Origin: Paenibacillus senegalimassiliensis
Lineage (GTDB): Bacteria > Bacillota > Bacilli > Paenibacillales > Paenibacillaceae
Direction of reading: 5' to 3'
DNA length: 64,000 nt
Assembly (NCBI RefSeq): GCF_001486585.1
Contig: NZ_LN909046.1
Location: forward strand, 186,001 to 250,000
Part shown: positions 5,852-22,264 of the stretch, in pieces
How positions within the stretch are numbered: position 1 is the stretch's first letter
Layout of the letters: every line of letters starts with the position of its first letter
Notes under the pieces: model-generated
Seen by the model: the letters and a program-made list of their open reading frames with translations, nothing else
Databases searched by the model: none
What the model was told of the DNA's origin: nothing
Translations under genes and position numbers: made by a program

Positions 5852-7045
5852 ATGCCGGAAAAGCGAAAATTCTCGATTCCCGAGCCGATTCGGGATGATG
5901 GCAGCGGGGCCACAGACCCGGGGCCGCGGGATATTTGGCGTGACCTGGAGAACCCTGATATGCTGGTTCCCCCGGTAACGGATAACGGATTGGTGCCGAA
6001 TTTGAAATTCTCCTTCTCTGATACGCATATGCAGCTTAATCATGGAGGCTGGTCCCGGGAAATCACGGCCAGAGAGCTCCCCATTGCAACCACTCTGGCG
6101 GGGGTAAACATGCGCTTGACACCCGGAGGGGTTCGGGAACTGCATTGGCATCAGCAGGCGGAATGGTCGTTTATGATCCAGGGAAAAGCGCGAATAACCG
6201 CGGTAGATCAGCTAGGGCGAAATTTTATTGCCGATGTGGGTGTAGGAGATTTATGGTATTTCCCGCCGGGACTTCCGCACTCCATACAGGGATTAGAGAA
6301 AGGCTGCGAATTCCTGCTGGTATTTGATGACGGTAACTTCTCGGACTTGAACACACTGTCCATTTCGGACTGGTTCGCCCATACCCCGAAGGAGGTCTTA
6401 TCCGCCAATTTCGGAGTTCCGGAGCGGGCGTTTGACCATATCCCCTCCAAGCAGGTCTATATCTATCAGGATGCCGTTCCCGGATCGGTCGACAGCCAGC
6501 GGGTGACCTCTCCTTACGGAGAAATCCCCCTTAGCTTCAAATATAATCTACTTGCACAGAAGCCCATCATTACACCTGGCGGTAGTGTTCGCATTGCCGA
6601 TTCGTCTAATTTCCCGATCTCCCGAACGATTGCGGCTGCTCTGGTGGAAATCAAACCCGGTGCCATGCGCGAGTTGCACTGGCATCCTAACAATGATGAG
6701 TGGCAATATTACTTGTCGGGTCAAGGCCGCATGACTGTATTTGCCGGGGGCGGCGCGGCGCGCACCTTCAATGTTCGGGCCGGGGATGTGGGTTATGTAC
6801 CGTTTGCTTATGGACATTACATCCAGAATACCGGAGAGCAGAGCATCTGGTTCCTGGAGATGTTCAAGAGCGACCGCTTTGCTGATGTCTCTCTGAACCA
6901 ATGGATGGCGTTAACGCCACGGGAGTTGGTTCAGGACAATCTGCATGTAGGACCGCTGCTGATGAATGCCTTGCGCAAGGAAAAGTGGCCTGTGGTGAAA
7001 TATGATATACCTGATGTTGCTCAGCCTAACGACGGCGATAATTGA
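5852..7045 (+). CDS. oxdC: Bicupin oxalate decarboxylase (OxdC family)
   Basis: It converts oxalate to formate and CO2 in the cytoplasm using manganese. Each cupin half carries its metal site: HWHQQAEW (His98, His100, Glu104) with His143 in the N-terminal half, and HWHPNNDEW in the C-terminal half. The length (397) is slightly longer than Bacillus OxdC. There is no signal peptide. AGGAAAGAGGAG precedes the ATG. The flexible lid, which I recall as FSENST in Bacillus subtilis OxdC, reads FSDLNT here (Ser164-Asn167), so the lid glutamate proposed to act in decarboxylation is replaced. Decarboxylase versus oxidase activity is therefore open. The 3' end overlaps the convergent gene at 7026 by 20 bp. 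Confidence 0.9.
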
Positions 7046-7412
7046 GTACCTCTTCGACATCGTCCATCTGAACGGCCAAGAACCGGATGTCTTCGGAATT
7101 GGCACAACGTGCTGCAATCTGTGGCAAATCAATGCCGATATAAACCTCGGCGTTGCTATGACTCATACTCAGTTCCGCTGAACCGTCGGTGTACTCTGGC
7201 GGTTCTTCGTATTCGCAAATAAGCAAATCCTCCAGCAAGACGGAGACGCCGTACAAATCCCCAAAGTCCTCGGCAGTGAAGGGCTCAAAGGGAGCTGCAA
7301 CCGGAATATACACGGGCTTTGACCAATCCATCTCCCCTGCGGCGCCCCGAATGATTAATTGCAGCGGACGTGAGGCTTCCCCATAAAAATCGCAAAATGC
7401 TGCAATGCGCAT
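7026..7412 (-). CDS. Uncharacterised 128-residue protein in the tailocin repressor operon
   Basis: I do not recognise a family. The ATG at 7412 is supported by AAAGGAGGG eight bases upstream, lying inside the end of the ImmA-like gene, so the two are translated as one unit (repressor, ImmA, this protein). It is an acidic soluble protein without membrane segments or a signal peptide; segments such as [15 protein letters not shown] and [12 protein letters not shown] suggest a small alpha/beta fold. Its end overlaps the convergent oxalate decarboxylase gene by 20 bp. Its place suggests a role tied to tailocin control or self-protection, but that is inference from position only. Confidence 0.65.
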
Positions 7413-7414
7413 CC

Positions 7415-8008
7415 TTAAAGCCCTCCTTTGCCACCTAACTGGCGCTCCAATTGGGACAGCACCCGCTGGGTCTCGGGTGACCACTGATGTTCGAATTCTC
7501 TTCGCTTCGTATCCTGTGCAGCCGCCAACAGACTGCCATGCAGCACTCGGCGCTGAATTTGATCCAGCCGCTGTTCAGCCAATCCTTCGGGAACATCAAA
7601 TTGCTCCGCGATATAGGCCACGGCTTCATTCCGGTAATCTGGAACGGGGAGCTTGGCGAACATGTAAAAGGGAATGGCTGCGTAAAGCACAAATTGTTCG
7701 GCTTCCGTTTCCTGTGCATTTTTGAACAAAGCATGCATTCTCCGCTGGTCTCCCGCATGTCTCAGCACATGGCATAATTCATGGAAGAAGATGACCCTGG
7801 CTTCGGCGGGATCGGCGTGCTTGTTCAGGAAAATAACTTTCTCCTCATTGTCAGAGAACGATGGATACTCCCCTGTAAGCACCTCAACGCCAAAGGCTTC
7901 AGCAATGCGCGAAATATCCAGATCAGACGGCTTTAAGATTCCCTGGCTTAGACATTTGTTGTTAATCCATTGCTCCAGAAGGGTCTCACGATAATAGGTA
8001 TATAACAA
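7415..8008 (-). CDS. ImmA/IrrE-family metallopeptidase
   Basis: The zinc-protease motif HELCH lies near residues 76-80, followed by a conserved Glu region (ETEAEQF), the usual layout of ImmA/IrrE proteins that cleave or inactivate XRE repressors of phages and ICEs. The best start is TTG at 8008, five bases after GAGGTGG; the upstream GTG at 8017 would lie inside that ribosome-binding site. It is downstream of the XRE repressor on the same strand, the standard ImmR/ImmA pairing. By analogy it would relieve repression of the tail genes under stress. About 85 bases separate it from the repressor gene. Confidence 0.85.
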   Translation of the reverse strand: MLYTYYRETLLEQWINNKCLSQGILKPSDLDISRIAEAFGVEVLTGEYPSFSDNEEKVIFLNKHADPAEARVIFFHELCHVLRHAGDQRRMHALFKNAQETEAEQFVLYAAIPFYMFAKLPVPDYRNEAVAYIAEQFDVPEGLAEQRLDQIQRRVLHGSLLAAAQDTKRREFEHQWSPETQRVLSQLERQLGGKGGL

Positions 8009-8093
8009 TCCAACCACCTCGAATAAGAATGTATGTTCGGTTTAATGGCCGAAATAAAAGCCCCTGGCCGGGGCCGTAATGACGACTTGAAGA

Positions 8094-8447
8094 TTAATTC
8101 GAACTGTCCTCGTTAAGCAGCTTTTTTTTCTGCTCCCGATAGGCCTTGAGCGCGGCTTCCATCATGGCGATTTCATCTGCGGTGTAGGCTTCAGGTCCAC
8201 CAAAAAAGGATAAACTCATAGCCTTGTCCGATGCAGGCGCGGGATCGGCGGTCCGTCCAAGCAAATAGTCGGCGCTTGTATCCAGAGCGTCTACAATTTT
8301 GCGCAGCACTTCGGGATCGGGTTTGCGGTCATTGGTCTCGTATCTGGACAACTGTACGATAGAAATATCCGCTTTGGCGGCCAAATCCTTTTGCGTAAGG
8401 TTATTTTGTTCTCGGAGGTGTTTGATCCGATCGCCTAACGTATGCAT
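8094..8447 (-). CDS. XRE-family repressor of the tailocin
   Basis: A classic N-terminal XRE helix-turn-helix (LTQKDLAAKADISIVQLSRYE, broken here at LTQKDLAAKADIS and IVQLSRYE) covers residues ~17-45, with a linker and an Asp/Glu-rich C-terminus typical of dimerising phage repressors. AGGAG sits five bases before the ATG. The gene faces away from the tail genes across a 300-bp control region that holds four TTACC-N5-GGTAA palindromes, the expected operators. It heads an operon with the ImmA-like peptidase. It is 117 residues long, in the usual range for PBSX-Xre/ImmR repressors. Confidence 0.88.
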   Translation of the reverse strand: MHTLGDRIKHLREQNNLTQKDLAAKADISIVQLSRYETNDRKPDPEVLRKIVDALDTSADYLLGRTADPAPASDKAMSLSFFGGPEAYTADEIAMMEAALKAYREQKKKLLNEDSSN

Positions 8448-8509
8448 AGCTACTCCTCTTCTCTTCTGATACCACCAGAACGATGACCACGAAATGAAGC
8501 ATGGCCTCT

Positions 8510-8538
8510 CTTATAACTAGTTTATCACATGTTACCAA
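8510..8538 (-). promoter_or_regulatory. Putative promoter of the repressor operon
   Basis: Reading the minus strand, TTGGTA (8538-8533), a 17-base spacer and TATAAG (8515-8510) form a reasonable sigma-A promoter about 60 bases upstream of the repressor ATG. The -35 hexamer lies inside operator O1 (8532-8546), so the repressor should regulate itself. Confidence 0.6.
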
Positions 8539-8651
8539 ATTGGTAAAGAGAGAATGATAAGTTTCATGATTAATTGTCGAATTGGTAATAAATTGGGTTG
8601 ACATTACCAAAATGGTAATTTATAATGAGGATAAGGTTACCGAATCGGTAA
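8532..8651. promoter_or_regulatory. Operator array of the tailocin repressor (four palindromes)
   Basis: Four 15-base sites share the pattern TTACC-N5-GGTAA: O1 8532-8546, O2 8574-8588 (left arm degenerate, TTGTC), O3 8604-8618 and O4 8637-8651. Their centres are 42, 30 and 33 bases apart. O1 overlaps the repressor -35, O3 fills the spacer of the rightward promoter, and O4 covers its start point. A more degenerate look-alike (TTGCC-N5-GACAA) lies at 8711-8725. This is the arrangement expected for a lysogeny-type switch. Confidence 0.8.
8598..8626 (+). promoter_or_regulatory. Consensus sigma-A promoter for the tailocin regulator gene
   Basis: TTGACA (8598-8603), exactly 17 bases, then TATAAT (8621-8626): a perfect match to the consensus. 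The spacer is almost entirely operator O3, so repressor bound there would exclude RNA polymerase. It drives the ArpU-like gene at 8750 through a leader of roughly 115 bases. Confidence 0.85.
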
Positions 8652-8749
8652 TAAATAAGAAAATTAATGCAGACAAGCTATGTTTTATGGGACAAACAGA
8701 CACACGGCTATTGCCGAATTGACAATAGTATAATGAAGGAGGAGTTCAG

Positions 8750-9253
8750 ATGGGAAGAAGACGTATACATGTATATCATGCCTTGTTCAGTCCACTGCCA
8801 GTTGACGAGACAGCCACCCGGGCAGCCGTAGAACGGCGCTTGGAAGAGGTGCGGCAATACCGGCAAATCGGGCTGATTCGCCAAGAGGCTTTTGTTACCG
8901 CCAAGTACGAGCCGCGATATCAAGGTGGAGGGGGAGTCAGCAACCCTACAGAGCGATTGGCTATTATGAATGCGGACAAGGAAGCGGAACTGATTCGCAA
9001 GTCCGAACTGCTTGAGCTGGCGATGGAGCGACTATCGGAGGATCAGCAGGAGGTTATTGGGCGGAGCTATCTCAGCCGGGAGGGCGAATATGATTTTATC
9101 AGTTGCGGGGAGATGGGTATTAGCGACCGGACCTATCGCCGAATCAAAGCCAGTGCCATCCGACTCTTGGCGGCAGCAATGGGCCTTGAAGTCTATGAGA
9201 AAGAAGAACGTTCACGTACTGAGCATAGGAAAACAAAGCATGAAGTCGGCTGA
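8750..9253 (+). CDS. ArpU/sigma-like phage late-gene regulator
   Basis: A 167-residue basic protein whose second half (about residues 85-145) looks like sigma-70 region 4 or the ArpU/RinA-type late activators: LSEDQQEVIGRSYL, then a recognition-helix-like MGISDRTYRRIKASAIRLLA. AAGGAGGAG precedes the ATG. It is the first gene under the repressed promoter and is followed at once by a terminator, so it is a stand-alone early gene. By analogy with Xpf of PBSX it would switch on the tail genes. The triple 11-bp repeat downstream at 9340 is a plausible target; that link is inference. Confidence 0.75.
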   Translation: MGRRRIHVYHALFSPLPVDETATRAAVERRLEEVRQYRQIGLIRQEAFVTAKYEPRYQGGGGVSNPTERLAIMNADKEAELIRKSELLELAMERLSEDQQEVIGRSYLSREGEYDFISCGEMGISDRTYRRIKASAIRLLAAAMGLEVYEKEERSRTEHRKTKHEVG

Positions 9254-9267
9254 GGCCGGCTTTTTTT
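9244..9267 (+). terminator. Intrinsic terminator after the ArpU-like gene
   Basis: A 7-bp stem (AGTCGGC/GCCGGCT, one G-U pair) with a short loop is followed by seven T residues. The stem begins inside the last codons of the regulator gene. It separates the early gene from the structural operon. Confidence 0.8.
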
Positions 9268-9339
9268 GTGCGCTGAAAAGGAGATCGGGTGAAGGGAAAT
9301 CGCTATTCTTCCTATTAATATAAGCAGTTGGAGCCACTT

Positions 9340-9372
9340 GTCCGGTTGCTGTCCGATAGCTGTCCGCTGGAT
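9340..9372 (+). repeat. Three tandem 11-bp direct repeats, candidate activator site
   Basis: GTCCGGTTGCT, GTCCGATAGCT and GTCCGCTGGAT lie head to tail without spacing. Eleven bases is about one helical turn, so the GTCCG cores face the same side of the DNA. The block sits between the early-gene terminator and the tail operon, where the late promoter should be. No consensus sigma-A promoter is evident downstream, which fits activator- or alternative-sigma-dependent transcription. Confidence 0.5.
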
Positions 9373-9483
9373 GGCCCTCCGCTTCGTTTCCAGGGTGTTA
9401 AATTGGTAGTGTGGGAAGCGGAGGCACAGATGATTCAGTTAACCATCTGATCCATCGCTCCCGGCAATAGAGAATAAGGAAAG

Positions 9484-9517
9484 CCGCTGCAATTCTTCCA
9501 AAGAATCGGCGGTTTTT
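9484..9517 (+). terminator. Terminator/attenuator in front of the structural operon
   Basis: Stems CCGC/GCGG and ATTCTT/AAGAAT enclose a three-base loop and are followed by TTTTT. It lies only 20 bases before the first structural-operon gene, so it either insulates the operon or must be read through, which would permit antitermination control. Confidence 0.6.
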
Positions 9518-9537
9518 GATTTGGGAGGCCTTGCAGG

Positions 9538-9696
9538 ATGCGAAATAAGAATAAAACGCCGCCACCGGAGTCCACGGATGAATGGATTCAGCCCTTAAAG
9601 TGCCAGGGCTGTATTTGGGGCCGGCTGGAAGGAACCAAGCAGTTTTGTGGCTTGCCGCGTTGCGTGCTTGATTTGGATGAGCTGGAAAGGAGGTGA
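9538..9696 (+). CDS. Small four-cysteine protein at the head of the tail operon
   Basis: A 52-residue ORF starting with ATG nine bases after GGGAGG. It has four cysteines in the pattern CQGC...FCGLPRC, which suggests a small zinc knuckle. I do not recognise a named family. Small Cys-rich proteins often lie at the left edge of phage structural operons. The stop overlaps the following gene's start region, and its last codons contain that gene's ribosome-binding site. Confidence 0.6.
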   Translation: MRNKNKTPPPESTDEWIQPLKCQGCIWGRLEGTKQFCGLPRCVLDLDELERR

Positions 9697-10199
9697 TCAT
9701 CATTGGCGAAGCGATAAATGGAGCCGCCGCCTCAAATTTAACTTTGGGGGATTCCTGGCTGACCGCGCTTGCGGCCTGGTCAATGGGTGCGCTTGGACCG
9801 GAGTGGAAGGTCTATACGATTCTTTGGCCTGAAGACATGGCTCGTCCGGCGATTCTATGGAAGCTCATGGGGATGGAGGTCAACCCTGTTGGCCCGGCGT
9901 CCTTTGAGGTGCGCAGCCAAATGTCGGCCTGGGTGCGGGGACAGGATGCCGAGCAAGAGCAAACGGCTTTGACCGGATTGCTCGAGGCTCTGGGGGTGGC
10001 GATTAAAGTTCCGCTGGATGAAGCGGCCCGTACTTATATGCGGGTGGTGGAGCCAAGGCTGGCGTTGCCGCTGGACGAGACCTCAGAAGGGGCGGCTGCA
10101 CTCGGCAGGCTTACCGTTACGCTGGTGCGGCGAATGTCCGGGCCTGTGCAGGAAGCCCCGCTTATGCAATATGTACAATATCAATCGAAGATGAGGTGA
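9693..10199 (+). CDS. Putative tail terminator/completion protein (XkdJ position)
   Basis: It precedes the sheath gene, where contractile-tail clusters encode the protein that caps the tube. It has about 166 residues with no signal or membrane segment; segments such as VYTILWPEDM and RLTVTLVRRM fit a compact alpha/beta fold, but I cannot assign a family firmly. The start is odd. The in-frame GTG at 9693 lies within the strong AAAGGAGG, whereas an in-frame ATT at 9702 is eight bases after it, the ideal distance. No ATG or TTG sits at that distance in frame, so a rare AUU start is possible. Confidence 0.6.
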   Translation: MIIIGEAINGAAASNLTLGDSWLTALAAWSMGALGPEWKVYTILWPEDMARPAILWKLMGMEVNPVGPASFEVRSQMSAWVRGQDAEQEQTALTGLLEALGVAIKVPLDEAARTYMRVVEPRLALPLDETSEGAAALGRLTVTLVRRMSGPVQEAPLMQYVQYQSKMR

Positions 10200-10459
10200 A
10201 GAGGTTGGCAACTCAGAAGGTGAAATTAGCGGCATCCCGCAATAAGGCGCCGGTTAACTCCGCAGCACCAGGGAAGCTCAGAAGCACAAGCCCGCTGCCA
10301 AGTTATACGTATAGCGAGCTGCTCGCTGCATCGGAGATGCTGCTTGGCGTTAAGCCGGAGGTATTTGCGGGAGCGGCGATAGGTTTGGAAGAGGAAAAGT
10401 TGCGTGTGGATGTAGCCAAACGTTTGGTCAAACAATTTTTGGGAAGGAAGGTGCGGTAA
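10196..10459 (+). CDS. Small hypothetical tail-operon protein
   Basis: An ORF of up to 87 residues overlapping the previous stop (GTGA-type junction). A basic, Pro/Ser-rich N-terminal half is followed by a predicted helical half with SELLAASEMLLGV and KLRVDVAKRLVKQFLG. The start could be GTG at 10196 or TTG at 10205; neither has an ideal ribosome-binding site, so coupled translation is likely. It lies directly before the sheath gene and may be an assembly factor. No family recognised. Confidence 0.55.
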   Translation: MKRLATQKVKLAASRNKAPVNSAAPGKLRSTSPLPSYTYSELLAASEMLLGVKPEVFAGAAIGLEEEKLRVDVAKRLVKQFLGRKVR

Positions 10460-10461
10460 GT

Positions 10462-11919
10462 ATGGCAGGAGGAACTTGGAGTTTAACGGATCAGCCGGTG
10501 TTGCCGGGACTGTATATGAATTTTGTGAGTGCGGCAGGAAATGCGATTCAAGCGGGGGCGCGTGGGGTTGTAGTGGCTCCGGTCAAGGCCCATTGGGGTC
10601 CGGTGGGACAATTCGTGGAGGTGTCTAGTGAAGCGGCGATTCGCGAGTTGTTCTCGGAGGATGCTTCCGAAGGAGCAACCGCGTTCACTACATTATATTT
10701 GGCCTTGCTTAGCGGGCCGCAGAAGCTGCTGGCTTATCGACTGGCCGACAGTACAGCCGCCGCCGCGTCTGTGACGCTTGAGGATGAAGCTACTGCGGGC
10801 GTATTGGTGCTCAAAGCCAAATATCCTGGTCAACGGGGGAACGACTTCCGCGTGACGTTACAGCCTAGCTTGACGGTTCCGGGTAGCAAGGAATTGAAGC
10901 TGTATGAAGGAACCACATTGCTGCGTACGTTTGTGGCAGGAGACAGCTCGACTGTAGCGGTGGCCGCGGCCATCAACGGAGATCCGGCCAATCTGTGGAT
11001 CACGGCTGAGGAGATGGGTGACGGTGTGCTGGTGGATGTATCCGGAGCAGCTTTGAGCGGCGGGGAGAGCGGTATTTCCGGCATTACTCATGCCGAATAC
11101 ACAAGCGCTCTGTCCGCTTTTGAAACTCAAGATTTCCATGTCTTGACACTTGATGGAGTTGCGGAGGCTGCATTGCACACTAGTGTTGTGGCATGGGTCA
11201 AGCGTGTTCGCGAGGAAGGCAAGGGTATTATTGCCGTACTTGGCGGCTCTGATACGGATGACGCGGCTGCCGATGCTGTTAGCAAAGCGGTGACGCGTAG
11301 CGCTTTGATCGATTATGAAGGCATCATCAATGTGGGGACAGGTGCTGTATTGAATGGAACCTCGTATTCATCTGCCCAGGTGGCAGCTTGGGTGGCAGGT
11401 CTCATCGCAGGTCAGCCGCTCAAGGCATCGACAACGTATGCGGCTTCTCCATTTGATGATGTGACCCGGCGTTGGACGCGTTCCGAGCAGGAGCAGGCCG
11501 TGAAGGGAGGAGTATTCCTGCTGGTGCATGACGGACGCCGAGTGAAGGTGTTGCGAGGTGTGAACAGCTTAATTTCCCCGCGTGAGGGTCAGAACAAAGG
11601 CTGGAAGAAGATTCGCAAAATTCGTGTCATCGACCAGATTAATGCAGACCTGCAACGTACGGCTGAGGATGCCTATATCGGTAAGGTTAACAACACCGAG
11701 GAAGGTCGACTCGCGCTGATTGGCGCAGGCAAGCAGTATTTGCAAACACTGGCCGCAGAAAATGTTATTGAAGGCACCGGCTTTGATGTGACGCTGGACC
11801 CGCGCTTTTACGGCACAGCACCACAATTTACGCCGGAAGATGATCAGGTCTTCTTGTCCTGGACGGCGGACGACACCGATGTGATGGAACAAATTTTCGG
11901 CACGTTCTACGTGCAATAA
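10462..11919 (+). CDS. xkdK: Contractile tail sheath protein (XkdK-like)
   Basis: At 485 residues it is the length of PBSX-type sheaths. It polymerises around the tube and contracts to drive it through the target envelope. Supporting features are the N-terminal APVKAHWGPVGQ segment (handshake-arm region), a variable alanine-rich middle, and the conserved C-terminal domain with FLLVHDGRRVKVLRGVNSL, a VIDQINADLQR segment, and the final strand that links subunits. GGAAGG precedes the ATG. The tube gene follows 22 bases later, the invariant sheath-tube order of contractile injection systems. Confidence 0.9.
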   Translation: MAGGTWSLTDQPVLPGLYMNFVSAAGNAIQAGARGVVVAPVKAHWGPVGQFVEVSSEAAIRELFSEDASEGATAFTTLYLALLSGPQKLLAYRLADSTAAAASVTLEDEATAGVLVLKAKYPGQRGNDFRVTLQPSLTVPGSKELKLYEGTTLLRTFVAGDSSTVAVAAAINGDPANLWITAEEMGDGVLVDVSGAALSGGESGISGITHAEYTSALSAFETQDFHVLTLDGVAEAALHTSVVAWVKRVREEGKGIIAVLGGSDTDDAAADAVSKAVTRSALIDYEGIINVGTGAVLNGTSYSSAQVAAWVAGLIAGQPLKASTTYAASPFDDVTRRWTRSEQEQAVKGGVFLLVHDGRRVKVLRGVNSLISPREGQNKGWKKIRKIRVIDQINADLQRTAEDAYIGKVNNTEEGRLALIGAGKQYLQTLAAENVIEGTGFDVTLDPRFYGTAPQFTPEDDQVFLSWTADDTDVMEQIFGTFYVQ

Positions 11920-11941
11920 AGAATAGGGGAGGAACAAAACA

Positions 11942-12358
11942 ATGGCACAATTTCTTGATCCCGGCCGCGTAGTTATGGGTACGTTCGGCCAGATTTTTAT
12001 CGAAGGGGCTTGGCAGTCCAATTTGAACCACCTGGAAGCCAATGTGGAAGCGGAGAAGAAGGAGCTTAATCTCGTTGGCACGGAATACACGGTATTCAAG
12101 CTGGGACGCAAAAAAGGCACCGGCACGATGAGCGGCTATAAGGTGACCTCGGATATGATCGTCCGTGGCTTCCAGAAGTTCTCGATCATTCATAAGCTGG
12201 ATGATCCCGAAGCCTACGGCTTTGAGCGCATTCAATTGAACAATTGCATGGTGGACCGCATTCAACTCGCGAACTGGACCGCAGGCGAAGAGATCGTGGA
12301 GGAAACGCCGTTTACATTTGAATCCTACGAACTGCTTGATCCAATTGTTGCTTCTTAA
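11942..12358 (+). CDS. xkdM: Tail tube protein (XkdM-like)
   Basis: A 138-residue protein of the size and position of the PBSX tube subunit, which stacks as hexameric rings inside the sheath. Typical elements are the N-terminal GTFGQIFIEG strand pair, the charged VEAEKKELNLVG loop and the C-terminal VEETPFTFESYELLDPI strand. AGGGGAGG precedes the ATG. It is followed by an unusual non-coding stretch instead of the next gene. Confidence 0.88.
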   Translation: MAQFLDPGRVVMGTFGQIFIEGAWQSNLNHLEANVEAEKKELNLVGTEYTVFKLGRKKGTGTMSGYKVTSDMIVRGFQKFSIIHKLDDPEAYGFERIQLNNCMVDRIQLANWTAGEEIVEETPFTFESYELLDPIVAS

Positions 12359-12820
12359 TGGGAAGAAGATGGGGTAACTGTGAGCGTGGTTTAACAGGAT
12401 AGGCGACGGATGGAGCGGGGGAGACAGCAGGATGGTCTGATGGCTTGGTGGCTATGAAGTGGGCGCAAGTGATGATGCCTGAAGAGTAGGGCTAGGCACG
12501 AGGGATGGCGTGTTTGAGGAAGAGACGGGAGTAGCTCGTCATGGCTAGGAAGTTGTGGTGGCCTAAGGTAGAACGGTGTGCGTTTGGTGTCAATCAAGAA
12601 AGCACCAAGTCCTGGGGCGGTGCAAGGAATCCGAAGTTCCTAACTCCTAAACTCTGAAGCTCCCAAGCTCCCAAGCTCCCCCTGCTGTCTTGCTCCGTCT
12701 TTATTTAGCGAGCTTTCTGTCTGCCTGGGCCATACGTCTTAATAGATGGATTGGTTATGGTATGGAAGAGGCTTGAATTTAAAATTTATAATTTCTGAAG
12801 TGAAGAAGGAGGAACTGATC
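12359..12820 (+). other. 462-base non-coding island between tube and chaperone genes
   Basis: No supported ORF on either strand. The first ~250 bases are G-rich and C-poor on the plus strand. Near 12657-12682 an eight-base unit (AGCTCCCA) repeats almost three times. The only gene signal is the ribosome-binding site for the chaperone at the right end. Such a gap is out of character with the tightly packed genes around it; it may be a decayed gene or carry RNA structure. Confidence 0.5.
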
Positions 12821-13294
12821 TTGAGTGAACATACACCTTATGATCCTGTGAATGAGCAGGAGATTCTGGACGGGCTGTTTGAGACAGCCGCTAATTTGCC
12901 CGAGGAGACGGTCTTCATCGGCCGCTTGGGTTTGCGCGTGACTTTACGGGGGTTGACTTCAAGCAAGGTGGACGCTATTCGTGAGCGTTGCACCATTCGC
13001 AAGACAACGAAAGGCCATATTACTGAAAAAATTGACAGCGAGCTGTTTAATGCAGTGTTGATTAAGGAAGCAACCTCTGCGCTTGAAGTGGTGAAGAAGG
13101 ATTCCACCGGGGAGACGGCTAGTGGCGTGAAGCTGAGTGGTTGGGGCGACGATCGTCTGGTCAGCCGCTTGAAGTTGTCGGGTGGCGAAGAGGCCGTGCG
13201 TCGTTTGCTGCTAGCTGGGGAACTGGACGCTGTGGGCGACAAGGTGCTGGAAATTTCCGGCTTTGGCGTGGATATTGAAGACGTAAAAAACTAA
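12821..13294 (+). CDS. xkdN: Tail assembly chaperone, short form (XkdN-like)
   Basis: A 157-residue acidic protein of the XkdN/gpG class that coats the tape measure during assembly. The start is TTG at 12821, eight bases after AAGGAGG; the open frame extends to 12746 but has no translation signal there. It begins SEHTPYDPVNEQEILDGLF, includes LRGLTSSKVDAIRERC and ends VDIEDVKN. The last codons contain the heptamer A-AAA-AAC, so part of the ribosomes should shift and make a longer form. Confidence 0.8.
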   Translation: MSEHTPYDPVNEQEILDGLFETAANLPEETVFIGRLGLRVTLRGLTSSKVDAIRERCTIRKTTKGHITEKIDSELFNAVLIKEATSALEVVKKDSTGETASGVKLSGWGDDRLVSRLKLSGGEEAVRRLLLAGELDAVGDKVLEISGFGVDIEDVKN

Positions 13295-13434
13295 TCAGCT
13301 CCGGTGGCCAGACCACGCTGCTATTCCACATGTGGACCCGGCATCATCTGCGCCCCGGAGAATATTGGTCACTGCCCAAGGGAGAGCGCCTGCTGCTGCG
13401 GGCCTTCACAGAGCGGGAATTGGAACTGATGTGA
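12821..13434 (+). CDS. Tail assembly chaperone, -1 frameshifted long form
   Basis: Slippage on A-AAA-AAC (13285-13291), immediately before the TAA, moves the ribosome into the -1 frame starting at base 13291. That frame is open for 47 codons to the TGA at 13432-13434, giving about 204 residues. The extension looks like real protein: it reads LLFHMWTRHHLRPGEYW and then LPKGERLLLRAFTERELELM, which matches the small second chaperone domain (gpT-like) expected upstream of the tape measure. The same arrangement is known for gpG/gpGT of lambda and for many myophages. No start codon or ribosome-binding site serves the extension alone. Confidence 0.75.
13285..13320 (+). promoter_or_regulatory. Programmed -1 frameshift signal
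   Basis: The canonical slippery heptamer A-AAA-AAC is in the right phase (GTA AAA AAC TAA). Four bases downstream of it, CAGC pairs with GCTG and GTGG with CCAC around the loop CCAGA, forming a two-part stem with a 4-base bulge. Slippery site, adjacent stop and a stimulatory stem together make the standard signal. Confidence 0.75.
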
Positions 13435-13552
13435 ATAACGGAGAGGCGTTATGCGCTTCCACATGGCGGCTGGCGTTGCGTTGTGTGGCGGCAAACCTGG
13501 TGGCTGACGTTACTTTGTGGATTTAAGTGACGAGGAGCAGCTTGCTGAATGA

Positions 13553-13742
13553 ATTATAGGGAAATACTCCTGTTAATTCACCGAATTTGGTGGATTATGG
13601 GTAATTAACTGGAATTCCTCCTGTTAATATTTTGGAAATCGTTGTTTTTGGCCTGAATGGTCAAAATTAGCTGGAGCTTTTCCAGTTAAGTTGCTCTACG
13701 GCTGGAAATACACGGAATTAACATGAGTTTTTCCAGCTAAAT
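13553..13742. repeat. Four imperfect palindromic repeats in a non-coding island before the tape measure gene
   Basis: About 24-base units at 13553-13578, 13605-13630, 13667-13690 and 13718-13742 share the pattern TTAaCTGGA...TCCtGTTAA, with period roughly 45-65. The third is a clear hairpin (CTGGA/TCCAG). The whole stretch 13435-13852 is AT-rich and holds no supported gene; it ends with AAAGGAGG of the tape measure gene. They may be dispersed palindromes rather than phage sequence. Confidence 0.5.
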
Positions 13743-13852
13743 CAACGTATGAGGCAGCTTCATCGGTCAACTTGGACTACCTGCATTTAATTATAGATCA
13801 TGTAGAAGCTACTGCAATCCATTTAAGTAGAGAAAGGAGGTAATCGCAACTT

Positions 13853-15406
13853 ATGGCAGAAAATCAGAGCAATGAGCTTGATATACAGATCAATAGCACG
13901 GATATCGACCGGACGGAGAAGAAGCTTCGCGGGTTGGATCGGCTGTTGGAGCAAACGCGTCGACGAGCCGTATTATTGGGCAAAACTCGAATGAATCCGA
14001 CCATTACCCTGGTTGATCGTTTCAGTTCAGCCGCTGGCAAAATCAGTGACTCTTTAAAAAGACTAAATCAAACTCAGGCTATGCCTGTAGTCCGACTAGG
14101 TGCAAATCAAGCGATAAATTCCGTTCGCGAGCTTCGTGGATCGCTGGCTTCCCTGACAGGTACGCCTTGGCGCGTTTCCGTGGCAGGAGTCGATTGGGAA
14201 GTAGCGGTGGGAGACTCCTTCACAGCATGGATGAGCTCTGACGGAAAAGCGACGCTCCAGCGCATCTCATCTTCTATTAGTCAAGCGCTGGGGGATGGTA
14301 TGAGAGAGTTTGCAAAACAAGCTTTTGAGTGGGAAAGCAAACCTAATAAGAAAAGTTTGAATGCTAGTGATAGTATTCTAAACAAAAAACGGATACCTGA
14401 ATTTGGCAAGGACGGAAACTATACAGGGGAAGACTTCTTAAAAGAGGTACTATCACCAACTGAGATGTATTCCAGTGAAAACAGGCTATATAGTCCAAGT
14501 AGTTCGAGAGGAAGTTTTGGATCGACTTCTCCCGAGGAAATAACTCCTTTATCTTTCATTGGAGACGTTGGCGAAGAATATCTGAAAGATCGATCTAAAG
14601 ATTATTCTAATGATAAGTTTTCAGAATGGGGAGGAAAACTGAAGGAGTTGTGGCATAAGAAGTGGCCTGAAATAAGTGCGCGGTTTGAACCAAAATCAGG
14701 TGAATCTGTAATGGATTCTCTTACAAAATGGGGATCAAAGGGTGGGAAATTACTGGGGAAAGCTAAACCTGTGTTGAGTAAAGTAGGTGGACCTGCAGGT
14801 TTGCTTTTTGATGCTATTGATTTCGCTTCTGCTGATACACCAAGAGAGAAGACACAAAAAGTAACTTCTGCTGTTTTTTCTGCCGTAGCTGGTAGCTATC
14901 TTGGGCTGGGATTAGCAACGGTGCTTTCAGCAACAGGGCCTCAAGGTACTGCCTTGGGTGCTGTTATTGGTGGAACTGTCGGCGGAGTCCTAGGTGGGTA
15001 TGCAGGTGACTATTTTGGGGGACTGCTATATGACCTTGTAAATGGTGAATTAGATATAGCACCTAATAAAAAAACTCGAGAATTTTCTACCCGAGTTATT
15101 CCATCCAGCGTGCAAGGAATTACGGCTCCATCAGAGCCGCCTGTTCCTAAGGTTATGGGGACACCGATTTCGGATTATTACGAGTTGCCTGAGTCCGTGA
15201 GGGAGAAGATCCCTGGATATGGAGGGACAACAACGTATAAACCGGCCCCCACTTTTCCTCCTCCAAACCCAATCAACGTCACTATCTCCCCCGGCGCACT
15301 CAGTCTGACGGTGAACAAGGACGAGATTAACTATAAGGAACTGGCGGAAAAGATGGGGATAAAACTGGCCGACGCCATGCGGATGGCCATGCAAAATGTG
15401 AAGTAG
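13853..15406 (+). CDS. Tape measure protein (short)
   Basis: It sets tail length and is threaded through the tube. It follows the frameshifted chaperone, has a coiled-coil N-terminus (DIDRTEKKLRGLDRLLEQT), an internal glycine-zipper/hydrophobic region near residues 345-400 (ALGAVIGGTVGGVLGGYAG) and a C-terminal helix (ELAEKMGIKLADAMRMAM). At 517 residues it is far shorter than PBSX XkdO (over 1,300 from memory). At about 0.15 nm per residue it predicts a tail of about 80 nm. Bases ~14320-15110, encoding the middle, are clearly more AT-rich than the flanks, which suggests a replaced segment. AAAGGAGG precedes the ATG. Confidence 0.75.
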   Translation: MAENQSNELDIQINSTDIDRTEKKLRGLDRLLEQTRRRAVLLGKTRMNPTITLVDRFSSAAGKISDSLKRLNQTQAMPVVRLGANQAINSVRELRGSLASLTGTPWRVSVAGVDWEVAVGDSFTAWMSSDGKATLQRISSSISQALGDGMREFAKQAFEWESKPNKKSLNASDSILNKKRIPEFGKDGNYTGEDFLKEVLSPTEMYSSENRLYSPSSSRGSFGSTSPEEITPLSFIGDVGEEYLKDRSKDYSNDKFSEWGGKLKELWHKKWPEISARFEPKSGESVMDSLTKWGSKGGKLLGKAKPVLSKVGGPAGLLFDAIDFASADTPREKTQKVTSAVFSAVAGSYLGLGLATVLSATGPQGTALGAVIGGTVGGVLGGYAGDYFGGLLYDLVNGELDIAPNKKTREFSTRVIPSSVQGITAPSEPPVPKVMGTPISDYYELPESVREKIPGYGGTTTYKPAPTFPPPNPINVTISPGALSLTVNKDEINYKELAEKMGIKLADAMRMAMQNVK

Positions 15407-15421
15407 GAGGGAGGTCTGGCG

Positions 15422-16075
15422 ATGAGTACAACAGAGATACATTTGATCGACGGGGCGGGCAATGATTTTTATTTTCCCGTTAATCCGGATGAGATCACGA
15501 TCTCCCGCAGCAAGGGGCTGGAGACTGTAAGCATTTTGTCGCTTGGCGAGTACGATGTTTCGGGTGGAGAGAAGGTGAAGGAAATTGCCTTCTCTTCTTT
15601 TTTTCCTGTGGCGTATGATCCGGGCTACTGCAACTATGAAAATCTCCCCGATCCCCAGGAGGCGATGAACCACCTAACGACGCTGATGAACAGCAAATCC
15701 CCGGTGCGGCTGATTATTTCGGGCACGGCAGTGAATGTGCTGGTGACGCTGGCTGCACATGGCAGCAGCTTTAGGGGCGGTGAGCCAGGGGAGGTTTATT
15801 TTGATTTGACCGCGCGAAGCTGGCGGGAGATGAAGGTGCATACAAGTGCAGCAGCATCAGCATCCGGAGCGGCGGCGGGCAAGCCCAACCGACCTGATAC
15901 GAAGCAGCCTTCCAAGACCTATGTGGTCAAAGCGGGAGATTCGTTATCGAAAATTGCCAAGCTGGAGCTTGGGGATAGCGCAAAATGGCGGCAAATCTAC
16001 AGCGCCAATCAGCAGACCATCGGGAAGGACCCGAACCGCATTAAGCCAGGTCAGAAGCTGGTGATGCCGCAATGA
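15422..16075 (+). CDS. xkdP: LysM-domain tail hub protein (XkdP-like)
   Basis: 217 residues. The N-terminal ~140 form the conserved hub domain, which links tube and baseplate. After a Pro/Ala linker comes a LysM domain at about residues 160-216 (TYVVKAGDSLSKIAK, then IKPGQKLVMP) that binds glycan strands. It follows the tape measure, as XkdP does in PBSX. AGGAGGGAGG precedes the ATG and the stop overlaps the next ATG (ATGA). Confidence 0.88.
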   Translation: MSTTEIHLIDGAGNDFYFPVNPDEITISRSKGLETVSILSLGEYDVSGGEKVKEIAFSSFFPVAYDPGYCNYENLPDPQEAMNHLTTLMNSKSPVRLIISGTAVNVLVTLAAHGSSFRGGEPGEVYFDLTARSWREMKVHTSAAASASGAAAGKPNRPDTKQPSKTYVVKAGDSLSKIAKLELGDSAKWRQIYSANQQTIGKDPNRIKPGQKLVMPQ

Positions 16076-17073
16076 GTTATGAAGTGGTGCTGCAAAATAA
16101 ATATTATTTGCGAGAGCTGGTAGAGAGCATTTCGCTGAAGGATTCACTGGACCAGATTTCGTATCAAGGCACGATTCAATTGACAATTCCGGCTTCTTTT
16201 CCGGGGATTGAGCCTGGACAGGAGATTCGGATAAGCGGAGTTCCTTATGCTGCAAATGGAGGGGAACCCAGCGGTACTAGCAAGGGAATGGTTCCGCTGC
16301 TCCATCCGGGCGTGGTATGGGAATGCTCCAGTACAGTCAAGCAGGCCAAGCATATGACGGTGACCGTTTACGACCGTACCATTTACCTCGCCAAGTCGGA
16401 GGATGAGCGTCTTTTTCCGGCGGGTGGAACGGCCTCGGAACGCTTGCGAAAGTATGCTGCCGATTGGAATATCAAGCTGGACAAGGTACCTGATACGAAA
16501 ACCAAGCTGAAGAAGTCCATCTACCGTCCGCAAACCATTTATAACATGATGATGTCGGACTTGAAGGAGACGGTGAAGGCTGGGGGCGAGATGTATATTC
16601 CGCGGATGACACCGTCGGGCTTGACCCTTGCTCCCGTAGGGGGCAATGAGGTGGTTTGGCGGCTGGAAGCACTGGAGGAAGCCACGCAAAACCGCACTCT
16701 GGAGGGGGCCGTGACACAGGTGAAGGTCATCGGCACGGAGGCGCGAAGCGAACAGGCGCTGTCCAAGGTACTGGCCGTTGCCAGTGGCGAGACCGGCAAA
16801 TACGGGGTGCTGCAACGGATTATGCAGGATGAGAACGTCAAGACGGCTGCGGCGGCGAAGAAATACGCCGAGTCCATGCTGAATGGACAGGGGCATAGCT
16901 ATAGCGTCACTTGCCTGGACCTGAATACGGTGCGGGCAGGGGATCGGGTTTCTTTTAACGGAATGAATCTGATTGCGACCTCGGTGTCTCATGAATTGGG
17001 CGAGCCGGGGCATATGATGCTGGAACTGGCCACGGCAGAGGATTTAAAAAGGAGGTATTTCCTTGAGTATTGA
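16072..17073 (+). CDS. xkdQ: Tail hub/spike protein (XkdQ-like)
   Basis: 333 residues, in the XkdQ/gpD class of contractile baseplate hubs. An early segment reads IQLTIPASFPGIEPGQEIRI and the C-terminal part GHSYSVTCLDLNTVRAGDRV, the usual fold of these trimeric hub proteins under the tube. It overlaps the LysM gene by four bases and the next gene by 11, so translation is coupled. No peptidoglycan hydrolase domain is visible in it. Confidence 0.82.
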   Translation: MSYEVVLQNKYYLRELVESISLKDSLDQISYQGTIQLTIPASFPGIEPGQEIRISGVPYAANGGEPSGTSKGMVPLLHPGVVWECSSTVKQAKHMTVTVYDRTIYLAKSEDERLFPAGGTASERLRKYAADWNIKLDKVPDTKTKLKKSIYRPQTIYNMMMSDLKETVKAGGEMYIPRMTPSGLTLAPVGGNEVVWRLEALEEATQNRTLEGAVTQVKVIGTEARSEQALSKVLAVASGETGKYGVLQRIMQDENVKTAAAAKKYAESMLNGQGHSYSVTCLDLNTVRAGDRVSFNGMNLIATSVSHELGEPGHMMLELATAEDLKRRYFLEY

Positions 17074-17464
17074 TCCATTTGCGGCGTTGGCCGTATCGCT
17101 GCGAGAGAACGCGGCAAAAAAAGCGGCAGAGGTGTTAAGCGGAGTATCGGCAGAATTGGGACGGATTACGTCCACAGGCCTGAAGCTGGATGGCTTCAAG
17201 CATGAGATTCCGGACTATTTTGTGGCTGAATTACCGGGAACGTTGAGACTTCCGCAGCTTGCGCTCCACGGCAGCGTGAGCGGACTTAAGGATAGCGACG
17301 GGGGCAGCGTCACAGGTCAAGGGAGCTTCTCCTATGAAGCATCTGAAACCAAGGATGCGGTGCTGGCGCTGGCCTATAAGCCGGGAGACCGCGTGCTCGC
17401 GCTGCCGTTAAACGGTGGGAACGACGCGATCGTATTATGCAGGGTGGTGAGTGGAAATGGCTAA
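17063..17464 (+). CDS. xkdR: DUF2577-type baseplate protein (XkdR-like)
   Basis: 133 residues starting with TTG at 17063, seven bases after AGGAGG, inside the end of the hub gene. The C-terminal half (a short beta-rich stretch ending YKPGDRVLALPLNGGNDAIV) is the hallmark of the DUF2577/XkdR group, small OB-like baseplate proteins. The gene lies between xkdQ- and xkdS-like genes exactly as in PBSX. The start codon has the best translation signal in the cluster. Confidence 0.8.
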   Translation: MSIDPFAALAVSLRENAAKKAAEVLSGVSAELGRITSTGLKLDGFKHEIPDYFVAELPGTLRLPQLALHGSVSGLKDSDGGSVTGQGSFSYEASETKDAVLALAYKPGDRVLALPLNGGNDAIVLCRVVSGNG

Positions 17465-17918
17465 TCTTTTTCCAGAGTCTGTAGCTGATGCCTGGGAAAA
17501 TACGGAGCAAAACATCTCAGAAGCTACCCTTGATGAAGTCAAGTTTGGACGGAGCTGGCGTTATGATTTTACGGCTGGTGAGTTTGTGGTGACTCCCACC
17601 GGAAAAATAGCCATAGCGGATGAGATCGCCGCATGGAAAATGTGGTGCGAGAAGGCTATTCGTACACCGCGTTATCGGCATGTCATTTACTCTCGCACGT
17701 ATGGGCAGGAGTTCGAGGACCTGATTGGTCAAGGCTATAGCCGGGCCGTACAGGAAAGTGAAATACGCCGGATGACCGAGGAAACGCTGCTGACAGACCC
17801 TCGCACCTTGAGTGTGGACGGGTTTACTTTTGTCTGGCAGGAGGATGGTTGTAGGTTCACCTGCCGGGTGAAAAATAGTCGTGACGAAGAAATCAGGCTG
17901 GAAGGGAGTGCAGGATGA
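17457..17918 (+). CDS. xkdS: gp25-like baseplate wedge protein (XkdS/DUF2634-like)
   Basis: About 153 residues from the ATG at 17457 (GTG at 17451 is the alternative). Features include GRSWRYDFTAGEFVVTPTGK near the start, an AAWKMWCEKAIRTPRYRH segment and the conserved YGQEFEDLIGQGYSR. This family occupies the T4 gp25 position, joining sheath and baseplate. It overlaps both neighbours by a few bases. Confidence 0.82.
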   Translation: MANLFPESVADAWENTEQNISEATLDEVKFGRSWRYDFTAGEFVVTPTGKIAIADEIAAWKMWCEKAIRTPRYRHVIYSRTYGQEFEDLIGQGYSRAVQESEIRRMTEETLLTDPRTLSVDGFTFVWQEDGCRFTCRVKNSRDEEIRLEGSAG

Positions 17919-19036
17919 TGGCGGAAATCCCGCTTTATTTACAGGACCAGACGGAAGCGCGAATCATGCAGCGGATGCTGGACCGAGTGCCTTCGGACAT
18001 TGATAAATCCGAGGGTTCTTTTATTTGGGATGCAGAGGCGCCGACGGCCTTTATGCTGGCGGAAGCAGCGATATGGGCGCAGCAGGTGCTGGAGCGCGGC
18101 TTTGCCGGGACAACCTTCGGGGAATATCTCGATCTAAGGGTTGCTGAGCATGGGGTGACTCGGCGTGAGGCCGTAGCAGCTACCGGAGTTGTACGATTCA
18201 TCGGTGAGCCGGGCAAGTTGATTCCGGCAGGCACGTTAGTCGCCACTCCGGCGGATGAATTTTCCGCAGAAGCGTCCGTGGAATTTGTGACGACGGCTGC
18301 GATTACGCTGGATGAGCAAGGAGAAGGCCAGGTTTCAATTCGGGCCATGGTGCCCGGGCGGGCTGGTGTAGTTCCTGCAGGGGTCATCACGGTGTTGGCT
18401 GAGCCCGTTAGCGGGGTGAGAGCCGTAATGAACCCCGAAGAAACGCGGGGCGGATCGGATACAGAGTCCGATGAACTGCTGGTGGAACGCTTTTATTCCC
18501 AGGTAAGGAATCAGGGCACCAGTGGCAATAAAGCCCATTATCTGAAATGGGCGGGTGAAGTGCCTGGGGTAGGCGGAGCGCAAGTAGAGCCTTTATGGCA
18601 AGGCCCCGGAACTGTGGGCATTTATCTACTGGATGTCGATAAGCGTGCGGCCAGTGAGGAGATTGTGGATTCGGCTCAGGCTTACATTGATCCAACGATG
18701 GACGGGCAAGGGGAAGGCATGGCTCCGGCTGGGGCGATTGTTACGGTTATGCCTGCCGAAGAGGTGCCTATTGAAATTCGTGTGAGGCTGACGCTGGCGA
18801 GTGGGGTCACGATGGCTGAAGTGAAGGCGAGAATAGAGAATGGGGTGCGTGCTTATTTGAAGCAGCTTGCTTTTGCCGATCCCTTGGTACGCTTCACTCG
18901 CATCGCAGCCATCCTGCTCGATATTCCGCCGATCATCGACTATTCGGACCTGACCGTGAACGGCAATGCCGATACAAATCTGGAGATCTACACAGGCCAA
19001 GTGGCTGTGCTAGGTTCGGTAGATGCTTATGAATGA
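17915..19036 (+). CDS. xkdT: Baseplate J-like wedge protein (XkdT-like)
   Basis: 373 residues with the baseplate-J signatures: the EGSFIWDAEAPTAFMLAEAA segment near residue 30, AATGVVRFIGEPGKLIPAGT near 90 and the GTSGNKAHYLKWAGEVPGVG region near 205. It corresponds to T4 gp6 and forms the iris of the baseplate that triggers sheath contraction. GGGAG precedes the ATG at 17915, which overlaps the previous stop. Neighbours keep the xkdS-T-U order. Confidence 0.9.
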   Translation: MMAEIPLYLQDQTEARIMQRMLDRVPSDIDKSEGSFIWDAEAPTAFMLAEAAIWAQQVLERGFAGTTFGEYLDLRVAEHGVTRREAVAATGVVRFIGEPGKLIPAGTLVATPADEFSAEASVEFVTTAAITLDEQGEGQVSIRAMVPGRAGVVPAGVITVLAEPVSGVRAVMNPEETRGGSDTESDELLVERFYSQVRNQGTSGNKAHYLKWAGEVPGVGGAQVEPLWQGPGTVGIYLLDVDKRAASEEIVDSAQAYIDPTMDGQGEGMAPAGAIVTVMPAEEVPIEIRVRLTLASGVTMAEVKARIENGVRAYLKQLAFADPLVRFTRIAAILLDIPPIIDYSDLTVNGNADTNLEIYTGQVAVLGSVDAYE

Positions 19037-19604
19037 AGCGGGAATGACCAGTCCGAGAGGCCGTGAAATGTTGACCTACCTGCCGGCCTATTATGAAGGC
19101 TCGCGAGTGATGCGGGCGGACATGAATGCCAAGGGAGCGGAGCTTGACCTGTTGTTTACGGCGCTTGATGAGACGTTGCAGCAGTTTTTTGTCCGAACAG
19201 CGACCTGGGGGCTGGACCGCTGGGAAAGCGAGCTCGGTATTGAGACCGACCTGAGCAAACCTTTGGAGCAAAGGCGGGCGGTGGTAGAATCCCGGCTACG
19301 CGGCAGCGGAAAGTTCTCGGGGCAACTGGTGAAGAGTGTGGCGGAGGCTTATGACGGAGGGAAGGTTGAAGTTACTTTTCAGCCTCAGGAGTGGAGTTTT
19401 ACCGTTAAGTTTATCGACACCTTGGGCACGCCACCTAATCTGGAGGATCTGAAGGCAGCCATTGAAGAAGTGAAGCCAGCGCACTTGAAGGCTAACTTTG
19501 AATTTAACTATATGCTTATTCGAGATATTCATGAAGTATTGACGATTCAGGAGTTGGAACAAATTCCATTAAACAAATTTGCAGGAGGTGATCCGGTTGG
19601 CTAG
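19023..19604 (+). CDS. xkdU: Baseplate protein of the YmfQ/DUF2313 family (XkdU-like)
   Basis: 193 residues (or a few fewer if the ATG at 19029 is used). The family pattern is clear: an N-terminal REMLTYLPAYYEGSRVM, the central WGLDRWESELGIETDLSK block and a C-terminal KPAHLKANFEFNY strand. It corresponds to T4 gp7-type wedge tips that carry the fibres. It overlaps the end of xkdT by 14 bases and contains the ribosome-binding site for the fibre gene at its end. Confidence 0.85.
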   Translation: MLMNEAGMTSPRGREMLTYLPAYYEGSRVMRADMNAKGAELDLLFTALDETLQQFFVRTATWGLDRWESELGIETDLSKPLEQRRAVVESRLRGSGKFSGQLVKSVAEAYDGGKVEVTFQPQEWSFTVKFIDTLGTPPNLEDLKAAIEEVKPAHLKANFEFNYMLIRDIHEVLTIQELEQIPLNKFAGGDPVG

Positions 19605-20886: not shown

Positions 20887-20963
20887 AAGGGTTGACAATG
20901 ATATTAATGCTCCCTAAGTGTTGTTGGTTTACGGACTACACATAATAAAATGAGGTGGAAAAT

Positions 20964-21716
20964 ATGGCTGACGGAATTACGCTGCAAGAAATGGATTCGG
21001 CAGAAGCTGCCAAATTGGCTATGAAAAGTGAAGTGGGGACACTGTCCAATTTACAAACAACAGCTAAATCTAATCTGGTTGCCGCTATTAACGAGGCTTT
21101 TACGTCTGGCAATGAGCGAAAAGCGGATATGGTTGCCGCGCTTGTTGCCAAGGGGGTTCCGGCAACCACTTCGGAAAATTGGGAAGCCTTGATAGGTAAG
21201 ATGGATGCTTTAAAAACAGGGTTAGATAGATATATACCGAGATGGTATAAAGGTTATAATAACGTTGTTGACATCTATAAATTTATTCCTGGTGTCCTAG
21301 GTGGCGGCGCTGTTAATACAAATTCGCCTGACACCTTGATTTTCACTTGGGGGCAGGGAGATATCCATGCATCGGTTGTGACTGATCTGACCATCAATTT
21401 TGATAATATTAAATACATTATAGTTTTGCTTAATATTTCCAGACTAGTTGCAAATTATAATAGGGTTGGCACAGCAGAATTGTATGTCGGTACATGCACA
21501 CCCCAACAAAAATTAGTAACTTCGTTTACTGGTGTAACTGGAACCCTTAGGTATAGTGGCGTTTCCGATGATGGTAAGGATGTTGGTCACGAATATTTAA
21601 TTTTAGATACGTCATCTTTATCTGGGCAATATCATATAAAGATGTTGGGAAATTCAACCAATGATCTAAATTTCGCAGTTGGTTTAACCATGATTGTTAT
21701 GTTACCAGGTGATTAA
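20964..21716 (+). CDS. Tail fibre / receptor-binding protein 2
   Basis: 250 residues starting at ATG 20964 after GAGGTGG. Residues ~35-75 repeat the helical module of the upstream fibre (NERKADMVAALVAKGV, then NWEALIGKM) and the rest is an unrelated beta-rich domain ending in a hydrophobic strand (VGLTMIVMLPGD). The base composition is clearly more AT-rich than the baseplate genes, which is typical of exchanged host-range cassettes. It may be a second receptor-binding protein or a fibre accessory. Confidence 0.65.
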   Translation: MADGITLQEMDSAEAAKLAMKSEVGTLSNLQTTAKSNLVAAINEAFTSGNERKADMVAALVAKGVPATTSENWEALIGKMDALKTGLDRYIPRWYKGYNNVVDIYKFIPGVLGGGAVNTNSPDTLIFTWGQGDIHASVVTDLTINFDNIKYIIVLLNISRLVANYNRVGTAELYVGTCTPQQKLVTSFTGVTGTLRYSGVSDDGKDVGHEYLILDTSSLSGQYHIKMLGNSTNDLNFAVGLTMIVMLPGD

Positions 21717-21728
21717 AGGAGGAAGAAA

Positions 21729-22189: not shown

Positions 22190-22218
22190 CAGACAGCGCC
22201 GCAAGGCGTATTTTTTAC

Positions 22219-22235: not shown

Positions 22236-22264
22236 TATTTATTTCCCCGAAAGCAGGTGAACAG

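Follow-up and report, generated by a model that had tools for sequence, protein, structure and literature searches.

In phage lambda, the end of the tail assembly chaperone gene is read in two frames through a -1 shift, giving the short gpG and a minor long form, gpGT, and both forms act with the tape measure protein; the same account ranks A6C as a weak slippery site in E. coli (PMC5009743). Two-part tail genes were reported for 28 phage genomes in the survey of Xu, Hendrix and Duda (2004, as described in PMC10885494), and conserved tail-gene frameshifts of long-tailed dsDNA phages are also covered in PMC3398947. The zero-frame protein considered here is related to XkdN of PBSX and YqbN of the skin element in Bacillus subtilis (PF08890, PDB 3KLU). 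B. subtilis was the sole control genome with a PF08890 match, and 3KLU is a 157-residue chain named 'Uncharacterized protein yqbN', which presumably lacks any extension. As far as the text of the sources was available, the literature searched contained no report of a frameshift in XkdN, an earlier mention in Xu et al. (2004) being possible, and the available text of one phage paper (PMC12671070) does not connect XkdN with a frameshift. In phage phiCD508, the XkdN-like gp57 and the small gp58 were undetected in virions (PMC11948020); gp58 may be a candidate -1 extension.

The locus lies in a 64,000-nucleotide stretch of the Paenibacillus senegalimassiliensis genome (contig NZ_LN909046.1, positions 186,001 to 250,000), referred to here as the window, within a tail cassette of PBSX type at approximately 7 to 24 kb. 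Around the chaperone gene the cassette comprises the following features.

Minus strand of the cassette: IrrE-like peptidase and repressor (Pfam/PHROG scan)
8750-9253: ArpU-type regulator (TIGR01637, 54.6 bits)
10462-11919, plus strand: contractile tail sheath protein, XkdK-like (PF04984, PF17482, PF17481)
11942-12358, plus strand: tail tube protein, XkdM-like (PF09393, 143.2 bits)
13853-15406, plus strand: short tape measure-like protein of 517 aa, the next gene 3' of the chaperone (partial PHROG matches, position)
3' of the tape measure-like gene: LysM protein and YqbQ-like protein (profile matches)
17451-19604: baseplate genes (Pfam/PHROG scan)
19579-21716: tail fibre-like genes (Pfam/PHROG scan)
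22558-23514: amidase (Pfam/PHROG scan)
23532-23810: A118-like holin (Pfam/PHROG scan)

No terminase, portal or capsid gene was found among the 22 main ORFs of 7026-23810, each scanned against Pfam, PHROGs or both. Since sheath, tube and baseplate genes are present without these three, the cassette, judged from the genes of 7026-23810, looks like a tailocin, a headless contractile particle. The ORF at 19023-19604 had a tail protein as its best match (E 4.8e-55) and a weaker match to phrog_21322, a 'virion structural protein' of the head and packaging class (E 4.9e-19). A transposase of 606 aa with DDE domains (PF13751, PF05598) is encoded on the minus strand at 23834-25654, directly behind the holin end of the cassette.

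The original prediction had placed the frameshift site before a tape measure gene, and profile matches and position agree with this: the chaperone gene lies between the tube gene and a gene called tape measure-like from its position and from partial matches to phrog_1047 (tail associated lysin, E 1.1e-12) and phrog_167 (tape measure, E 4.4e-6), its product having no match in Pfam. Uncut tape measure-like genes of close relatives encode 465-845 aa, and the 517 aa of the window would suit a short tail. In 22 of 23 loci, the window included, the extension is followed by an ORF of at least 200 aa (the ORF of L028 is truncated where the locus ends, and L001 has too little flank). The distance from the extension to the next gene ranges in relatives from a 17-nt overlap to 443 nt; in the window, the 418 nt between the two (13435-13852) contain three degenerate 26-nt direct repeats.

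The chaperone gene and the elements at its end are given below; the short motifs and the stop codon were read directly from the letters.

12806-12812, plus strand: Shine-Dalgarno-like AAGGAGG, 8 nt before the TTG at 12821
12821-13294, plus strand: xkdN-like tail assembly chaperone, zero frame, 157 aa, PF08890 (Phage_TAC_5), from profile matches and with a putative TTG start
13285-13291, plus strand: slippery heptamer A_AAA_AAC, in phase and ending directly before the zero-frame stop
13292-13294, plus strand: zero-frame stop codon TAA
13291-13434, plus strand: -1 frame extension, 47 codons plus TGA (13432-13434), with a pN/pS of 0.271 and a predicted helical domain

The chaperone matched PF08890 with 73.2 bits (cut-off 27; E 2.6e-20), which places it in this family, and among PHROGs it matched phrog_389, 'tail protein XkdN-like' (E 2.1e-25). 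Against YqbN (PDB 3KLU) the whole-sequence E value was 8.9e-6, the best stretch covering positions 34-83 of the profile and no single stretch being significant alone. The closest named match was in P. sanguinis (98%). The start of the chaperone in the window is most likely, from the position of AAGGAGG, the TTG at 12821 and not the ATG at 12746 of the ORF list; counted by hand from this TTG, the products are 157 aa in the zero frame and 204 aa for the fusion. The structure predicted for the zero-frame protein was of poor quality (pLDDT 62). The gap of about 460 nt between the tube and chaperone genes (12359-12820) is free of repeats of at least 12 nt. The same genome carries a second, distant PF08890 chaperone (L043, G000:C13:633805-634209) with its own A_AAA_AAC and -1 extension.

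The zero-frame codons at 13283-13294 are GTA AAA AAC TAA, so that the window contains a heptamer of the canonical form X_XXY_YYZ, in phase and 5' of the zero-frame stop. It had been predicted that A-AAA-AAC is in phase just before the stop and that the -1 frame stays open for 47 codons; both were confirmed, the heptamer occupying 13285-13291 and the -1 frame continuing to the TGA at 13432-13434. Translation from 13291 in this frame gives LISSGGQTTLLFHMWTRHHLRPGEYWSLPKGERLLLRAFTERELELM, from which the extension peptide HHLRPGEYWSLPK and a junction peptide between chaperone and extension, NLISSGGQTTLLFHMWTR, are predicted.

The -1 frame is under purifying selection, in line with the earlier description of its translation as convincing protein. 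In 28 sequences of close relatives, hand-picked with near-identical copies excluded, pN/pS was 0.271 in this frame as compared to 1.107 and 1.953 in the two other frames of the same stretch; that of the upstream chaperone frame was 0.407. Chance counts were made on 195 distinct sequences among the first 208 loci. The -1 frame was open for at least 47 codons at 9.6% of 17,550 interior positions, as against 193 of the 195 heptamers, and an in-phase A_AAA_AAC occurred elsewhere in the same ORFs at only 2 of 26,340 codon positions. Codon use elsewhere in these ORFs is mixed, with AAA for 54% of Lys and AAC for 48% of Asn, and with 8-26% of Val, Ala, Leu and Ile codons ending in A at other positions. 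The three-codon site shows no drift despite the free use of synonymous alternatives elsewhere.

Relatives were collected by a PF08890 profile search of three overlapping sets of genomes, which gave matches in 100 of 148 genomes from the family, in 68 of 299 from the class and in 36 of 299 from the phylum. The 303 loci examined, in a first set of 209 and a second of 94, consist of the window, 33 close loci, the PF08890 matches listed and ten phage loci; left out were the row L034, which is the window again, three places at contig edges (G015:C22, G635:C34 and G635:C38) and one that scored below the cut-off (G586:C8). Some loci are one place met twice through different collections, and 277 of the 297 loci with A_AAA_AA(C/G) are distinct in the last 100 zero-frame residues plus the extension. 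The PF08890 searches are independent of the heptamer nucleotides, and one of the six patterns used for close relatives spans the VKN end. By a hand count, more than 30 family codes are represented among the host genomes.

Homologues with a lost heptamer or a broken -1 frame had been named as the observation that would speak against a frameshift. When these were sought, an in-phase canonical heptamer was found in 299 of the 303 loci: 296 with A_AAA_AAC, one with A_AAA_AAG (L108) and two with G_GGA_AAG (L303 and L306, with identical extensions). The 33 close loci, which came from searching genome and viral contigs with the zero-frame protein and include some duplicates, all carry A_AAA_AAC directly 5' of the stop and a -1 ORF of 47-70 codons. 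Among the 297 A_AAA_AA(C/G) loci, the -1 ORF has 47-72 codons in 295, the two short ones being at a contig end (L107) and in a broken frame (L096). The run is exactly six A in all 297, preceded by T or C and followed by C (296) or G (1), and the zero-frame stop comes immediately in 259, one codon later in 30 and further on in 8. In two of the four exceptions, EJ-1 and L260, the frames are fused by a one-base difference. The Streptococcus phage EJ-1 (L208, NC_005294.1) has one extra base upstream as compared to its near relative MismyG and is deposited as a single 199-aa protein, either a natural fusion or an old sequencing error; in L260, seven A join the frames and there is an internal TAA. 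The other two have an altered site, with five A in L242, and with A_AAA_AGT and an internal TAG in L308. The other nine phage records (phiCD27, phiCD418, phiC2, BalMu-1, Osiris, Abouo, PBP180, MismyG and Lietuvens) all have an in-phase A_AAA_AAC and a -1 extension.

Downstream of the heptamer, folding, alignment counts and z-scores indicate a two-part stem.

13299-13360, plus strand: two-part stem
13299-13304 with 13355-13360 and 13306-13308 with 13352-13354, plus strand: lower part (folding)
13309-13312 with 13347-13350, 13317-13320 with 13339-13342, and 13325-13328 with 13333-13336, plus strand: upper part (folding)

The outermost pairing joins CTCCGG (13299-13304) with CCGGAG (13355-13360). 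The four bases of the original prediction are counted from the stop codon, the stem starting 4 nt past it and therefore 7 nt past the heptamer, inside the range of about 5-9 nt expected for a frameshift stimulator. The 100 nt from 13285 fold with -35.6 kcal/mol (z -2.68), equally good folds being found in 2 of 200 shuffles, and in this fold the outer helix also pairs the final two heptamer bases. Across relatives, in the 194 of the 195 distinct sequences where the stretch was long enough, the 75 nt 3' of the heptamer had a mean folding z of -2.85, with 67% below -2; at eight control offsets the means lay between -0.02 and -0.49, and only 4-14% of the values fell below -2. The folding excess was present in the group of the window (z -3.39, n=40), in the sequences with a GD motif at the start of the extension (z -3.08, n=79) and in the remaining ones (z -2.33, n=75). 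The spacer varies in the family: of the 193 folds with such a stem, 123 have a spacer of 5-9 nt, 59 one of 0-4 nt and 11 a longer one, the commonest value being 7 nt (52 folds).

When 40 rows (39 of them distinct) were aligned, the cells of the two-part stem were 86.7% paired versus 41-49% after sliding by 1-3 columns. Covariation in the stem is modest, its bases being also constrained by the conserved SGG and RPG residues that they encode. In the lower stem both sides change in one of nine pairs, a value matched by 253 of 500 shuffles. The upper stem does better, but there two pairing registers occur in different relatives, and RNAalifold gave only 12 pairs with a covariation term of -0.39. 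The claim of a stem is based on the z-scores and the slid controls. A Shine-Dalgarno-like stimulator 5' of the heptamer was also considered and rejected: 9-mers ending 3-15 nt upstream paired with the 16S tail at means of -2.28 to -3.05 kcal/mol, while control offsets reached -2.86 (75 nt) and -2.35 (45 nt).

AlphaFold prediction for 13 extension sequences gave three helices with a mean pLDDT of 90. The extension had been described as a gpGT-like second domain, and this stands with regard to position, architecture and the compact predicted fold, but not as homology to lambda gpT: the extension of the window had no match in Pfam, and in the PDB neither a sequence match nor a fold match below E 4.6, so that neither search linked it to known gpT domains. 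Among viral folds, the six best matches (E 0.022 to 1.1) were to phage proteins of 40-59 aa, all of them uncharacterised; the top one, a 50-aa protein of Clostridium phage phiMMP02 (E 0.022, TM 0.85/0.80), is suggestive only.

Extensions match PHROG families of unknown function, namely phrog_4503, phrog_10943, phrog_2722 and phrog_20560. Five phage records were searched, with frames assigned by comparing positions. Two of them matched phrog_4503, in frame with the extension in both phiCD27 and Lietuvens; three matched phrog_10943, at the extension in Osiris and Abouo and, weakly, in Lietuvens. PBP180 matched neither. In Osiris and Abouo a separate hypothetical ORF is annotated in the same frame as the phrog_10943 match, and Osiris has a second weak, partial match to this family elsewhere (17217-17273, E 8.3e-5). 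From these in-frame matches, the best interpretation of phrog_4503 and phrog_10943 is that they represent the chaperone's second half. The expectation that annotators would miss the extension was right in the main, since five of the nine phage records list nothing there (phiCD27, phiCD418, BalMu-1, MismyG and phiC2), but three list a separate short hypothetical ORF in its frame (PBP180 ORF21, Osiris gp024 and Abouo gp18). The annotated ORF17 of Lietuvens overlaps the extension in a different frame, which rules it out as the extension.

With the heptamer, its phase, the stem, the selection on the -1 frame and the retention across the family all read from sequence, a programmed -1 ribosomal frameshift that makes a longer second form of the chaperone is highly probable. 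In the proposed model, which covers the slippage itself, how often it happens and what the long form does, most ribosomes would end at the TAA at 13292 and produce the 157-aa, G-like chaperone. A minority would pause at the stem 7 nt 3' with the Lys and Asn tRNAs on A_AAA_AAC, and both tRNAs would slip one base back, from AAA AAC to AAA AAA. Translation would then run for 47 codons to the TGA at 13432, yielding a minor, GT-like protein of 204 aa that ends in a small helical domain. If lambda is taken as the model, the short form would coat the tape measure protein and the long form would recruit tube subunits, and the ratio of short to long form would matter for building the tail, here that of a headless, tailocin-type particle.

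An identical product would also be made by transcriptional slippage, with RNA polymerase adding an A on the A6 run and normal translation giving the long form, and the constant tract is indeed a run of A. A run of six A is short for polymerase slippage, and this length never varies in the 297 A_AAA_AA(C/G) loci, and the only longer run seen, the seven A of L260, belongs to a copy with an internal stop and fused frames. Polymerase slippage needs neither a fixed codon phase nor a C at the seventh base, yet the phase is fixed and the C is present in 296 of 297. Other canonical heptamers are also found in place, A_AAA_AAG in L108 and G_GGA_AAG in L303 and L306, and the retention of the -1 frame behind G_GGA_AAG suits tRNA re-pairing. 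The conserved folded element directly downstream likewise argues for the ribosome, though a stem in the transcript could also act on the polymerase. On this evidence transcriptional slippage is very unlikely, and programmed ribosomal frameshifting remains the preferred reading.

The -1 frame could instead be a separate small gene, translated by re-initiation after the chaperone stop. The ORFs annotated in this frame in PBP180, Osiris and Abouo agree with such a gene, as do the PHROG families of such pieces and the presence of ATG, GTG or TTG within the first 12 codons in 89 of the 195 distinct sequences. Re-initiation is nevertheless even less likely than slippage of the polymerase, because the other 106 have no start codon in these 12 codons, though the stretch is conserved; in addition, the window has no ATG before codon 14, and the heptamer would be needless. 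A decayed fusion gene or a sequencing artefact, which the homopolymer run at the site and the broken or altered copies L096, L242, L260 and L308 might suggest, is extremely improbable in view of an arrangement common to 299 of 303 loci, named phage records included, and of purifying selection in both frames.

For the family as a whole, we consider it likely that XkdN/Phage_TAC_5 of Bacillota phages and tailocins is obligately two-frame. With the site kept at exactly A6C, which is weak in E. coli, tight selection would probably act on a gpG:gpGT-like ratio. The zero-frame family as now curated, together with the one solved structure that matches it in sequence, would then be half of a pair, with PHROG families 4503 and 10943, and perhaps 2722 and 20560, as the other half. 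The nine phage records point to incomplete annotation of a common tail module, their gene lists either lacking the chaperone's second half or giving it as a seemingly unrelated small hypothetical ORF. A single near-invariant heptamer in one protein family also offers a clean test bed for the chaperone ratio in Gram-positive contractile tails, and the C at the seventh base is worth testing because A6C is weak in E. coli. That the extension is kept next to a headless tail points to a role of the long form in building the tail and not in joining a head.

What is shared with lambda is a chaperone gene with two reading frames at its end, for a short form and a predicted minor long form. The lambda heptamer differs from A_AAA_AAC, PDB searches with the extension matched no solved gpT-like domain in either sequence or fold, and in the Paenibacillus gene the stop directly follows the heptamer and is followed by a strong stem. 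The nine XkdN-like phage records share the in-phase heptamer and the -1 extension; they differ in being deposited as phages (PBP180 as a defective one) and in having a longer tape measure where it is seen whole, e.g., phiCD27 12252-16541. Possibly new are one near-invariant site across the family, kept in a headless tailocin, and the assignment of two PHROG families, listed as being of unknown function, to the chaperone's second half. On sequence grounds, the Paenibacillus chaperone site is very probably a case of an already known kind of phage event that is unusually constant in the XkdN family: it falls in the same class as the tail-gene frameshifts of long-tailed dsDNA phages, from which the XkdN family differs by its one nearly invariant heptamer.
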